From Flavobacteriales bacterium (GTDB taxonomy: Bacteria; Bacteroidota; Bacteroidia; Flavobacteriales_D; Parvicellaceae), in NCBI GenBank assembly GCA_025210295.1, contig JAOASC010000026.1, positions 62,001 to 126,000 on the forward strand: DNA of 64,000 nucleotides, read 5' to 3'. Shown here one piece after another: positions 6,931-11,682 of this stretch. Under the pieces are notes generated by a model. It was given only the letters and a program-made list of their open reading frames with translations, was not told the origin of the DNA and made no database searches. How positions within the stretch are numbered: position 1 is the stretch's first letter; the number at the start of each line of letters is the position of its first letter. A program made the position numbers and the translations under genes.

Positions 6931-8286
6931 GTGGCAAGTCGTTCAGGAAATATAGTAATCCTTGGAGGTGGTGAAAGCGGTGTTGGAGCTGCTATTTTAG
7001 CTCAGAAAAAAGGCTTTGATGTGCTTGTTTCGGATAATGGAACGTTAAAGGAAAAGTACAAAAAAGACTTAGATGCTTATGCGATTGAGTGGGAGGAGAA
7101 TGGGCATTCTTTAGATAGGGTGTTTCAGGCTACTGAGGTTATCAAAAGTCCTGGTATTCCAGATACAATTGCTTTAATTAAAGATTTGAGGGAAAAGCAG
7201 ATTCCTGTTGTGTCTGAAATAGAATTTGCAGCACGTTATACAAAAGCAACTAAGGTTTGTATTACGGGTAGTAATGGAAAGACTACAACAACATTAATGA
7301 CATATCATTTGCTGAAGAAAGCGGGGTTGAATGTCGCGGTTTGTGGGAATGTAGGGGAGAGTTTTGCAAGGTTAGTGGCAGAAGAGGAGCATGACTATTA
7401 TGTCATAGAATTAAGTAGTTTTCAATTGGATGGAATGTATGAGTTTAAGGCGGAAATAGCAATTCTCTTAAACATAACTCCCGATCATTTAGATCGCTAT
7501 GATTACAGTATGGATAAGTATGCTGAAAGTAAATTCAGGATTATTCAAAATCAAACAGAAAGAGATTTTTTCATCTTCAATAATGATGATGAGTTAATCG
7601 TAAATAAAATCAACAACAAACAAATAAGAGCTCAGCAATATCCTTTCTCTTTAGAACAACAGCTAGAGAAAGGAGGGTGGCTCGACAACGAACAACAAAT
7701 AAATATATTAACAAACAACAAACAACAACAAACAACAATGTCAATTCACGAGTTAGCACAACAAGGAAAGCACAATGCCTATAATTCAATGGCATCTGGG
7801 ATTACAGGAAGTATCCTGAAAATCAGAAAAGAAATTGTAAGAGAAAGTTTATCTGATTTTCAAAACATAGAACATCGATTAGAGCCAGTGGTAGCTGTTC
7901 ATGGAATCGAATTTATTAATGATTCTAAAGCGACAAATGTAAATTCAACATGGTATGCTTTAGAAAGTATGGATAAGCCTACTATTTGGATCGCAGGAGG
8001 AGTAGATAAAGGGAATGATTATACCATGTTGCATGCATTGGTGAAACAAAAAGTTAGAGGGATTGTCTGTCTAGGTAAAGATAATACGAAATTGAGAGAG
8101 GCTTTTGGTGATATTATAGAAGATATTTATGATGCAACTTCTGCTCAGGAGGCAGTAGGCTTATCGTATAGATTGGCTAAAAAGGGATACAATGTCTTAT
8201 TGTCTCCAGCATGTGCTAGTTTTGACTTGTTTGAAAATTATGAAGATAGAGGGAATCAATTTAAGAAAGCTGTAAGAATGCTGTAA
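6931..8286 (+). CDS. murD: UDP-N-acetylmuramoylalanine--D-glutamate ligase MurD
   Basis: 451 residues from a GTG start three bases after mraY. It adds D-glutamate to UDP-MurNAc-L-Ala. A Rossmann-type N-terminal domain (GGGESGVGAA at 12-21) is followed by the ATP loop I111-TGSNGKTT119, ELSSFQLD (160-167), NITPDHLDRY (181-190), and a C-terminal domain of about 150 residues with NDSKATN (330-336), GGVDKGNDY (356-364) and LSPACASFD (424-432). A CAA-rich, asparagine/glutamine-rich stretch lies at about residues 250-268, between the central and C-terminal domains. A diverged copy of the C-terminal domain alone lies 1.7 kb downstream at 10004-10504. A -7-like TAATTTTG overlaps the stop region (8287-8294). 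Confidence 0.97.
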   Translation: MASRSGNIVILGGGESGVGAAILAQKKGFDVLVSDNGTLKEKYKKDLDAYAIEWEENGHSLDRVFQATEVIKSPGIPDTIALIKDLREKQIPVVSEIEFAARYTKATKVCITGSNGKTTTTLMTYHLLKKAGLNVAVCGNVGESFARLVAEEEHDYYVIELSSFQLDGMYEFKAEIAILLNITPDHLDRYDYSMDKYAESKFRIIQNQTERDFFIFNNDDELIVNKINNKQIRAQQYPFSLEQQLEKGGWLDNEQQINILTNNKQQQTTMSIHELAQQGKHNAYNSMASGITGSILKIRKEIVRESLSDFQNIEHRLEPVVAVHGIEFINDSKATNVNSTWYALESMDKPTIWIAGGVDKGNDYTMLHALVKQKVRGIVCLGKDNTKLREAFGDIIEDIYDATSAQEAVGLSYRLAKKGYNVLLSPACASFDLFENYEDRGNQFKKAVRML

Positions 8287-8413: not shown

Positions 8414-9196
8414 ATGAAAAATTTAATTAAAATTTTAAGCTTATTGATCTTAACGTCATGTGCGGCTAGTTCGGATGTTGTCCACAAAGGTTTTTTACAA
8501 AAAAGAAAGTATAAAAAAGGTTATAGCTTATCAGTAAGGAGTAAAACAGAGAGCAAGCATAAAAAAGTTGACCGTTTAACAGCGGAACCACCCTTGGAAG
8601 AAGTTGGAGTGTTTGCAGAAAAAGAGAAAGTTTCTGTAGAAGAAAGGAGGAGTGTTAGTGAAGTGATTCCTCAAGAGAGTGTAGTTGAAGAATCGTTATT
8701 GGCTTTAGCGGATGATGATGGAAAAGTTGATGTAGGACAAGAGGGAGTAAAAAAGACTAAACTTTTAATGTTTACAGAAAAGTTAGAGTCAAAACTAGAG
8801 CACTCAGGAGTTGCCGATAAAAAGGTAGAGAAAGTATATAAGTCTAACTATACATTCTTAATGGTGCTAGGAATTTTATCCTGTGTCATGATATTTGGGA
8901 TTTTTATTCTGATTAAAATAAGAAAGATAGGTAAAGAAAAGATCAACAGTTCTAAGGAGTTGAATAGGAGGTCGATAGTGACCGGGGTATTGTATTTGTT
9001 GGGATTGTTATTGTTGTTGGGAATTGTTATGGTGTTAAATGCTATAAATATAGATGGTTCTAATGCATGGATAGATAGCTTGGCGTTTTTGCTGATTTTG
9101 GGAGCTTCAGGTATCTTGGTGCTTATTGTTGGGCTGTCAAGTTTGATACCACTTTTTAGTACATTAACTAAGTTGTCTAAAGAAACAAACGAATAG
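8414..9196 (+). CDS. Lipoprotein with FLQKRKYKKGY motif and three C-terminal membrane helices (sister A)
   Basis: 260 residues, function not recognised. A type II signal peptide with lipobox LTSC (Cys16) is followed at once by SSDVVHKGFLQKRKYKKGYS, then about 100 residues of charged, low-complexity sequence. Three hydrophobic helices follow: about 148-168, 189-211 and 219-247. A lipid-anchored N-terminus joined to inner-membrane helices is an odd topology. The neighbour at 9199 has the same plan and nearly the same first 45 residues, so the two arose by tandem duplication. They sit inside the dcw cluster between murD and ftsW and are probably co-transcribed with the division genes. A role at the envelope is inferred from this position only. 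Confidence 0.85.
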   Translation: MKNLIKILSLLILTSCAASSDVVHKGFLQKRKYKKGYSLSVRSKTESKHKKVDRLTAEPPLEEVGVFAEKEKVSVEERRSVSEVIPQESVVEESLLALADDDGKVDVGQEGVKKTKLLMFTEKLESKLEHSGVADKKVEKVYKSNYTFLMVLGILSCVMIFGIFILIKIRKIGKEKINSSKELNRRSIVTGVLYLLGLLLLLGIVMVLNAINIDGSNAWIDSLAFLLILGASGILVLIVGLSSLIPLFSTLTKLSKETNE

Positions 9197-9198
9197 TT

Positions 9199-10014
9199 AT
9201 GATGAAGTACATAGGAGTAATATTAAGTTTCGTACTAATGATGTCGTGTGCGTCTAGTACTGATGTGGTTCATAAAGGCTTTTTACAAAAAAGAAAATAT
9301 AAGAAAGGTTATAATTTGTCTTTGAGAAAGAAGAATAATGAAAAGACTAATAGCCAGGAATCATTAGTGTTTCATGATGAGTATGATGCAGAGGAGTTAA
9401 AATTTGTAGAAAAAACTAAGCCTAATAAAGAGCCTCAACCTCAATACAAAAAGGCAAAAGAAGAAGAAGTATTTCTTGCTGATTTAGAGGTAGAGTATGA
9501 GGTGAAAACATCAATTGAAAGGGCAGATGAATTATTTGTTGAAGAGGTTGGTGTTGAGGATGTAGAAGAAGATCCTTTGTTAGCAATTAAGCAAAGTAGG
9601 AGGATGACTGTTGCACAAGTTTCTAAAATTGTAGGACTTGTATTAATCATTCCACTCATTACACTGCCAGTTACTTATGTGCTTTTTTTGGTGTCTTTAC
9701 ATAGTTTGCTTATGTATACAAGAGATCGGAAAGTAGAAGATAAAGATAGTTTGTATGAAAGAGAAGTAAAAATGCTTTATGAATCCTGTGTGACAAAGAT
9801 GAAAGTAATGTATATACTTATGGCAATAGGCTTAGGATGCTTTTTCTTGGTAGTATTACTTTATGATGCGTTTGTTGTGTTTGGTGTTTTGGGGTTGATT
9901 GCTTTGGCGTTGTTCCTAGCTAACTTATTGATGTTAACTATTCAGTATTTTAAGTTGTTTAAGATGGTGAGACAAAAAGATATGGTGAGAAGTGTAGAAC
10001 GTAGTGGAGAATAA
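9199..10014 (+). CDS. Lipoprotein with FLQKRKYKKGY motif and C-terminal membrane helices (sister B)
   Basis: 271 residues, function not recognised. The signal peptide has lipobox MMSC (Cys17), followed by ASSTDVVHKGFLQKRKYKKG, nearly identical to the upstream gene. The middle (about 45-135) is acidic and variable. Two longer hydrophobic regions follow, near 146-172 (interrupted by a proline) and 205-250 (probably two helices). At DNA level the block around the QKRKY motif is almost the same as in the upstream sister (about 8470-8525 versus 9258-9313), while the remaining sequence has diverged, so selection appears to act on the N-terminal motif. It starts two bases after sister A and its end overlaps the GTG of the next gene by 11 bases. 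Confidence 0.85.
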   Translation: MMKYIGVILSFVLMMSCASSTDVVHKGFLQKRKYKKGYNLSLRKKNNEKTNSQESLVFHDEYDAEELKFVEKTKPNKEPQPQYKKAKEEEVFLADLEVEYEVKTSIERADELFVEEVGVEDVEEDPLLAIKQSRRMTVAQVSKIVGLVLIIPLITLPVTYVLFLVSLHSLLMYTRDRKVEDKDSLYEREVKMLYESCVTKMKVMYILMAIGLGCFFLVVLLYDAFVVFGVLGLIALALFLANLLMLTIQYFKLFKMVRQKDMVRSVERSGE

Positions 10015-10504
10015 AAAGATAAAATATAAAGAGCAGTTGTTGGCAATCAGACGAAAAAGTTTGGCGTCCTTTTCTGATATGGATTATCGATTAGAATCGA
10101 CAGCCATATTGGATGGTGTTGAGTGGATTAATGATTCGAAATCAACAGACGTGGCATCAACGCATTATGCGTTGTCTGTGTTTAACCAACCGCTACATTG
10201 GATTGTTGAAATAGATGGAGGAGAACAAGATTATTCTATTCTAGAAGATTTAGTTCGTCATCAAGTACGGTCAATTGCTTGTTATGGGGTTTATAATAGC
10301 GAATTTGAAAATTTGTTTGGAAGTATTGTCGATAGTTATGTGTTTCATGCCAATTTAGAAGAAGCAGTGAAAGCTATAGCTGATAGAGCAAAGGCTTATG
10401 AGGTGGTGTTGTTCTCGCCAGCTTCTTTTTCATCTGATGGAAGGTCGTATATAGAAAGAGGGAAGATGTTTAATCGTGTTTTGAAAGCGCATTGTCAATT
10501 ATAG
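10004..10504 (+). CDS. Stand-alone MurD C-terminal-domain paralogue
   Basis: 166 residues from a GTG that overlaps the preceding gene by 11 bases. From about residue 14 to the end it can be aligned by eye with residues 303-451 of MurD at 6931. DYRLESTAILDGVEWINDSK matches the MurD stretch EHRLEPVVAVHGIEFINDSK, and ASTHYAL, EDLVRHQVRSIACYG, EEAV and SPASFSSDGRSYIERG all have MurD counterparts. The N-terminal and ATP-binding domains are absent. The lysine of MurD's GGVDKGNDY is lost (here IDGGEQDY), and the D-glutamate-pocket loop is one residue shorter and rewritten. It therefore cannot be a ligase, yet the frame is intact, arguing for a retained non-catalytic role. A slowly decaying fragment is the alternative. 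Confidence 0.8.
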   Translation: MENKKIKYKEQLLAIRRKSLASFSDMDYRLESTAILDGVEWINDSKSTDVASTHYALSVFNQPLHWIVEIDGGEQDYSILEDLVRHQVRSIACYGVYNSEFENLFGSIVDSYVFHANLEEAVKAIADRAKAYEVVLFSPASFSSDGRSYIERGKMFNRVLKAHCQL

Positions 10505-10509
10505 TTATT

Positions 10510-11682
10510 ATGCAGGTTAAAATTGAAAAATACTTAAAAGGAGATCGCGTGGTTTGGGCGGTGGTTATTCTATTATCATTGTTTTCGAGTGTTATGGCCT
10601 TGAGTGCAAGTTCTAATTTAGCGTATCGATTAACAGGAGGAGATGCAACGCCGTTTTGGTTTAAGCATGTTGCGATTTTAATCATGGGAATTGTGTTGAT
10701 GTTGTATTTGCAACATTTTAATTTTAAATACTTTTCTAGACTTTCTCAGTTGGGGATATGGGTAGCGGGGCTATTGCTACTCGTGACTTTGGCTTTTGGA
10801 AAGGAAGTGAACTCTGCGCAACGTTGGATAATGGGGTTTCAGCCTTCAGATTTGGCTAAGATTGTGTTAATAATTTATGTGTCAAGACTGTTGGCTTTAA
10901 AACAAATGAAGGGGACGATTAAAGACCTAAAGCAAGGATTGTTGCCTATGCTTATACCAATAGGAGCGATTTGTGTGTTGATTTTACCCGCTGATTTTTC
11001 AACGGCAGCAATGTTATTTACAGTTTGTTTTGTGTTGCTTTTTGTAGGAGGGGTTGCAGTAAAACACTTGTTAGGGATAATAGGTAGTGCTGTTGTGTTT
11101 TTTGGATTATTGTTAGCATTAAATGCTGTCTCACCAGGGTTGTTGCCGCGTGTTGGTACTTGGCAAACAAGATTGACGGAGTTTTTTCATGGAAGTAACT
11201 CGCCTAGAAATTCTAAAGAGAATTATCAAGCAAATATGGCTAAAATGGCTGTTTCAACTGGAGGTTTTTTTGGGAAAAGGCCCGGGAGAGGAGATATTAA
11301 AAATAACCTTTATTCAGCACAGTCGGATTTTGTATATGCGTCAGTAATAGAAGATTTTGGTTCCTTGATCGGAGGATTGGGAATGTTGTTGCTCTATCTT
11401 ATTTTTCTGTTTCGATCCATAAAAATTATGACTAAAACAGAAAGTAAGTTCGGAGGATATATGGCTTTTGGTTTGAGTTTTTTACTGGTCTTTCAGGCAT
11501 TTATAAATATGGGGGTAGGAGTCAATTTATTGCCAGTAACGGGGCAGGCTTTGCCTTTGATTAGTATGGGAGGAACATCAATTTTGTTTACCTGTATGTC
11601 GATAGGGATCATCTTAAATATAAGCCGGACAGTTTATCAAGATGAAGAACAGGAGTCTAAACAAAATAAATCATTAACATAA
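10510..11682 (+). CDS. ftsW: Peptidoglycan glycosyltransferase FtsW (SEDS family)
   Basis: 390 residues from the ATG at 10510. An earlier in-frame TTG at 10492 would overlap the previous gene and is less likely. About ten transmembrane helices are visible. SEDS-family hallmarks include SAQRWI with the following GFQPSDLAKI, the long loop with YQANMAKMAVSTGGFFGKRPGRG, QSDFVYASVIEDFG (the aspartate of this motif is the SEDS catalytic-region residue), and GVNLLPVTGQALPLISMGGTS near the C-terminus. FtsW polymerises lipid II into septal glycan together with FtsI, encoded earlier in the cluster. The gene is separated from ftsI by the murE-murD block and the three-gene insertion. Confidence 0.95.
   Translation: MQVKIEKYLKGDRVVWAVVILLSLFSSVMALSASSNLAYRLTGGDATPFWFKHVAILIMGIVLMLYLQHFNFKYFSRLSQLGIWVAGLLLLVTLAFGKEVNSAQRWIMGFQPSDLAKIVLIIYVSRLLALKQMKGTIKDLKQGLLPMLIPIGAICVLILPADFSTAAMLFTVCFVLLFVGGVAVKHLLGIIGSAVVFFGLLLALNAVSPGLLPRVGTWQTRLTEFFHGSNSPRNSKENYQANMAKMAVSTGGFFGKRPGRGDIKNNLYSAQSDFVYASVIEDFGSLIGGLGMLLLYLIFLFRSIKIMTKTESKFGGYMAFGLSFLLVFQAFINMGVGVNLLPVTGQALPLISMGGTSILFTCMSIGIILNISRTVYQDEEQESKQNKSLT

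Follow-up and report, generated by a model that had tools for sequence, protein, structure and literature searches.

A family of free MurD C-terminal domains between murD and ftsW in many Bacteroidia, and its possible connection to FtsW

The window is a 64,000-nucleotide stretch of DNA from a Flavobacteriales bacterium (contig JAOASC010000026.1 of assembly GCA_025210295.1, positions 62,001 to 126,000). It contains a division and cell-wall (dcw) cluster, which is among the best-studied gene clusters in bacteria, in the order mraZ, mraW, an ftsL-like gene, ftsI, murE, mraY, murD, two lipoprotein genes, a gene that we call the orphan, ftsW, murG, murC, ftsQ, ftsA and ftsZ. The identities of mraZ, mraW, the ftsL-like gene, ftsI, ftsQ, ftsA and ftsZ are presumed from their translations. 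The murD gene (6931..8286; all features given here are on the forward strand) is full length and encodes the complete set of catalytic C-domain residues. It is followed by the genes for putative lipoproteins A (8414..9196) and B (9199..10014), whose products are 31% identical, and by the orphan (10004..10504), which encodes 166 amino acids from a GTG start and overlaps the lipoprotein B gene by 11 nt. The ftsW gene (10510..11682) begins 5 nt past the orphan's stop; its ATG at 10510 is a likelier start than the mechanically assigned TTG at 10492.

The orphan protein is a MurD C-terminal domain alone. This had been proposed in a first-pass annotation, together with the loss of a lysine and a remodelled D-Glu loop, and BLASTP, NCBIfam and AlphaFold2/Foldseek agree with it. 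BLASTP aligns the protein to the window's MurD with 57 of 149 residues identical (38%, E 3e-28), covering MurD residues 302-449. The NCBIfam murD model matches it with an E-value of 4.4e-27, only at model positions 296-440 of 441 and with a score of 95 bits against a cut-off of 212. The Pfam model Mur_ligase_C (PF02875) gives 17.9 bits, under its cut-off of 28.4, and matches 21 of 24 members of the orphan family at E<=0.01. The three-domain layout of MurD (UDP-binding, ATP-binding and C-terminal) is absent from the window's orphan. An AlphaFold2 model (pLDDT 88.1, pTM 0.81), which may be biased to MurD because the input alignment consisted mostly of MurD C-domains, was compared with the PDB in Foldseek, where the first 33 matches are all chains of MurD (TM by query 0.69-0.76).

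Secondary structure in the AlphaFold2 model and the alignment place a helix at residues 2-21 (10007..10066), which is a lengthened counterpart of the last helix of MurD's middle domain. Its net charge has a median of +1 in orphans versus 0 in MurD, and this is not a family-wide feature; we therefore do not claim membrane binding through this helix. The NDSK motif, conserved across orphans, occupies residues 43-46 (10130..10141; E. coli MurD N316-K319). Aligned with MurD, the D-Glu loop reads EIDGGEQDY in place of GGVDKGNDY (10208..10234), and farther on lies the LFSPA...ERG segment (10409..10462; E. coli L409-G426), with the D-Glu loop one residue shorter. The window's orphan retains R29, N43-D44-S45-K46 and S138-P139-A140, so that MurD residues R302, D317 and K319 are all present (as R29, D44 and K46). 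The D-Glu-site lysine, K348, is missing, and the position is occupied by G. The protein has the slot between murD and ftsW, the length (about 145-240 aa), the lost lysine and the kept NDS that characterize the orphan family, f24 being the exception for the lysine.

These features recur in the family. In E. coli numbering, and comparing 74 MurDs with 89 orphans, K348 is present in 73/74 MurDs versus 4/89 orphans, the latter being confined to family f24 and one sequence of family f40. The positions listed next are each invariant in the 74 MurDs. Among the 89 orphans, P411 is kept in 88, N316 and G426 in 82 each, D317 in 81, S318 in 75, T321 in 66, R302 in 62, S415 in 57 and K319 in 54. A core of N316/D317/S318 and SP...RG is retained across the family. 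Changes typical of orphans are A329 to S (77%), L409 to F (77%) and N322 to D (47%). In E. coli MurD, K348, T321, S415 and F422 bind the D-Glu-like group of inhibitors (PMC3527612), and thus the loss in orphans centres on the D-Glu pocket. Judging from its sequence, the orphan cannot be a ligase by itself, since it lacks the ATP-binding and UDP-binding domains and the D-Glu lysine is gone in nearly all members; without an ATP-binding domain, no activity would be expected from the orphan alone.

We searched samples of the order and of the class with a profile built from 24 orphans. The weakest orphan accepted (genome G085) had an E-value of 3e-5, a level at which highly divergent copies could escape detection. 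Orphans are present in 25 of the 67 Bacteroidia families sampled, and are patchy inside some of these families. Eight belong to the window's order (f1, f2, f3, f4, f7, f8 with two genomes, f10 and f11) and the others to other orders (f16, f17, f21, f22, f24, f25, f31, f35, f38, f40, f42, f47, f51, f52, f54, f56 and f64). When the orphan itself served as query, a second, free MurD-C match appeared in nearly all f1 genomes in which the region is readable. The orphan is absent from most f8 genomes and from every f9 and f13 genome sampled. Outside the class, 68 genomes from elsewhere in the phylum gave no clear free orphan; in one of them (G324), a contig edge carries an 88-aa piece that most likely comes from a split murD. 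Among the matches listed in a scan of named genomes, only one of 80 had an orphan (Flavobacteriales bacterium HKST-UBA105, locus L096). As a negative control, ftsW directly follows murD, with no orphan, in at least about 75 named loci, from Flavobacteriaceae, Weeksellaceae, Bacteroidales and others. In one control locus (L107), murD and ftsW are separated by an unrelated ORF of 125 aa.

With few exceptions, the family is found in the arrangement murD-orphan-ftsW, and the longer order murE-mraY-murD-orphan-ftsW-murG-murC occurs in about 70 fetched loci. Median gaps, calculated with mechanically assigned start codons, are 16.5 bp between murD and the orphan and 3 bp between the orphan and ftsW. 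In families f2, f3 and f7 (L219-L227 and L255), murD and ftsW flank a tandem pair of orphans. Within the window's genus, murD and the orphan are separated by one or two lipoprotein genes, and the orphan-ftsW junction is still tight. In genome G245 (loci L194 and L196), ftsW comes immediately after the orphan on one contig (C2), and murE-mraY-murD occurs without an orphan on another (C1), both sites being far from contig ends. Therefore, the orphan and ftsW either moved jointly or stayed joined when murD left.

The orphan evolves faster than the MurD C-domain, yet it is clearly constrained. Between the window and genome G001, the identity is 48% for the orphan and 85% for the MurD C-domain. Pairwise dN/dS of orphans (Nei-Gojobori, pairs with usable dS) ranges from 0.02 to 0.35, with typical values at dS below about 1.4 of 0.034, 0.115, 0.083, 0.075, 0.042 and 0.020; the MurD C-domain of these genomes mostly gives lower values. 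Three damaged copies, all in fragmented assemblies, compare with about 90 intact ones. The selection suggested in the first-pass annotation is thus borne out, and the dN/dS near 1 and broken sister copies that would mark a pseudogene are not what we observed. A chance reading frame is excluded, because the frame is conserved in about 90 loci. An in-frame TAA interrupts the D-Glu loop region of one damaged copy (G026, L237), another has a frameshift at the N-terminus (G036, L238), and the third, the murD-proximal copy of a tandem, is truncated (G078, L256).

A tree was built from 50 orphans and 51 MurD C-domains. In it, one branch separates all MurDs from the orphans (SH-aLRT 89), with long branches present, and the MurD of the same genome never stands beside the orphan. 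AU tests of a family-level duplication (p = 0.137) and a genus-level duplication (p = 0.070) are not significant at 5%. Consequently, the case for a single ancient origin of the family, which we consider likely, rests on the tree split and the shared substitutions. The earlier description of the orphan as lying next to its parent does not agree with this class-wide split, and the window's orphan is most likely not a recent local copy of MurD.

The orphan therefore belongs to a family of free MurD C-domains that is under selection and sits between murD and ftsW in the dcw cluster of many Bacteroidia. It resembles MurD (NCBIfam TIGR01087, Pfam PF02875 for the C-domain) in its C-terminal fold, its NDSK and SP..RG motifs and its gene cluster, and aligns over the entire MurD C-domain. 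It differs in lacking the N-terminal and middle domains, in the loss of the D-Glu lysine except in f24 and the one f40 sequence, in its S329/F409 signature and in its faster evolution. No model in Pfam or NCBIfam separates orphans from MurD. Literature searches, with most subscription journals outside their coverage, turned up no account of a MurD C-domain standing alone. The sources searched thus describe no function for this mid-cluster gene, although 25 of the sampled families of one class retain it.

Our preferred reading, which we hold tentatively, is that the orphan is a pseudo-ligase adaptor made and working together with FtsW. The orphan would be co-translated with FtsW and would bind its cytoplasmic face. 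Its MurD-like surface, or a pairing with MurD or MurG, could keep the precursor-making enzymes at the septal glycan polymerase, and the supply of lipid II would thereby be coupled to septal synthesis. We favour FtsW over MurD as the partner because of the shorter gap (3 bp vs 16.5 bp), the insertions in the window's genus, the arrangement in G245 and the tracking of evolutionary distances. Among the proteins compared over 58 genomes, FtsW has the distances that correlate best with those of the orphan (r 0.59), with a partial r of 0.52 given MraY, the MurD body, the MurD C-domain and MurG. The partial is 0.59 with one genome per family and 0.71 without f1 and f24, and none of 500 taxon permutations reaches these values. 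Distance matrices are non-independent observations, and we regard this tracking as suggestive only. Many FtsW columns also differ between genomes with and without an orphan, but phylogeny confounds this comparison and we dropped it.

Several observations weaken the FtsW-adaptor reading. Rank-based partials are weaker (0.31-0.65), and in f1 alone the orphan tracks MurG (partial 0.46) and the MurD C-domain (0.32), not FtsW. Moreover, the arrangement in G245 is that of one genome, f24 differs from the rest of the family, and the gene is absent from many Bacteroidia. A Mur-enzyme complex at the membrane is an old idea. If the orphan does bind FtsW, it would be a cytoplasmic link from the precursor ligases to the septal SEDS polymerase, and such a complex would become directly testable. 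In Bordetella pertussis, a MurE-MurF fusion and a scaffold of MurG oligomers are known (PMC6420597). The likeness lies in the idea of Mur enzymes being held together near the membrane steps; there, however, MurG provides the scaffold and the ligases are active, whereas here the candidate is a separate, inactive ligase domain.

The main rival to the FtsW adaptor is a regulator or decoy of MurD, which would dock on the N-terminal and middle domains or pair with the C-domain, and alter the activity of MurD as a dominant-negative or stabilising subunit. Such a role fits the homology to the mobile domain of MurD, the position next to murD, the retained N316/D317/S318 and SP..RG core and the tracking of the MurD C-domain within f1. 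There is also a precedent in MigC of Acinetobacter baumannii, which binds the middle region of MurD and inhibits the enzyme (PMC12208494). MigC is likewise a non-ligase protein acting on MurD, but it is a COG0523 GTPase, whereas the orphan is a Mur-ligase domain. However, across families the orphan's distances do not track those of MurD (partials -0.35 to 0.10; -0.35 for the MurD C-domain over the 58 genomes), the orphan of G245 is beside ftsW and apart from murD, and in the window's genus other genes separate the orphan from murD. Hence, although a partnership with MurD, as suggested in the first-pass annotation, could still be correct, the genomic evidence leans more to FtsW, and we consider a MurD regulator rather unlikely.

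A ligand sensor is less probable still. Such a protein would bind a nucleotide, D-Glu or UDP-MurNAc-dipeptide and report precursor levels. This idea fits family f24 best. In 10 of 10 f24 genomes, from two genera, the orphans (L185-L187 and L266-L272) retain HR, NDSKATN, GGVDK, SPASAS and ERG, and in one f24 pair the orphan, at 95% identity, has changed less than the C-domain of MurD itself, at 77%. Elsewhere, the substrate sensor of the earlier annotation is weakened by the loss of K348, and K319 is kept in little more than half of the orphans. In addition, the ligand site of MurD needs the other two domains for its completion.

In f24, the gap from the orphan to ftsW is about 150-250 bp, and MurD is on a long branch. 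The f24 orphans may work in another way than the rest of the family. They may have retained the ancestral state, or murD may have been replaced and the native C-domain kept. The f24 orphan would mark an intermediate stage from enzyme domain to pseudo-enzyme. A broader reading, doubtful as a whole, takes in both the FtsW adaptor and f24. In many Bacteroidia, the orphan might be an undescribed division protein specific to FtsW, an inactive MurD C-domain through which the septal glycan polymerase is linked to the synthesis of precursors in the cytoplasm, and its f24 sister, having kept the ligand site, might signal the condition of the precursor pool.

The earlier suggestion of a scaffold with the two adjoining lipoproteins is very unlikely. 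The three genes are contiguous in the window and two of them overlap, but the lipoprotein genes are a genus-specific insertion, with none in the murD/orphan interval of any other orphan-bearing family among the loci compared, while the orphan is class-wide. Lipoproteins A and B have the common start C-A-(A/S)-S-(S/T)-D-V-V-H-K-G-F-L-Q-K-R-K-Y-K-K-G-Y and hydrophobic C-terminal stretches, and a weak third relative is found elsewhere in the genome (G000:C20:95159-95479).

Finally, a functionless, decaying remnant of a tandem murD duplication, which the fast divergence and the three damaged copies might suggest, is hardly credible and is refuted as a pseudogene reading for the family as a whole, given the low dN/dS, the intact frames in about 90 loci from 25 families and the family-specific S and F at positions 329 and 409.

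Five genomes (G209, G249, G253, G287 and G245; loci L184, L189, L190, L192 and L195) have extra free MurD-C copies that are unlinked to the cluster. We looked for a functional clue to these copies in the five genomes and found none. They form a more degenerate side branch in which NDAH, NDST or NDSL replaces NDSK, and an aldehyde dehydrogenase gene adjoins four of the five.
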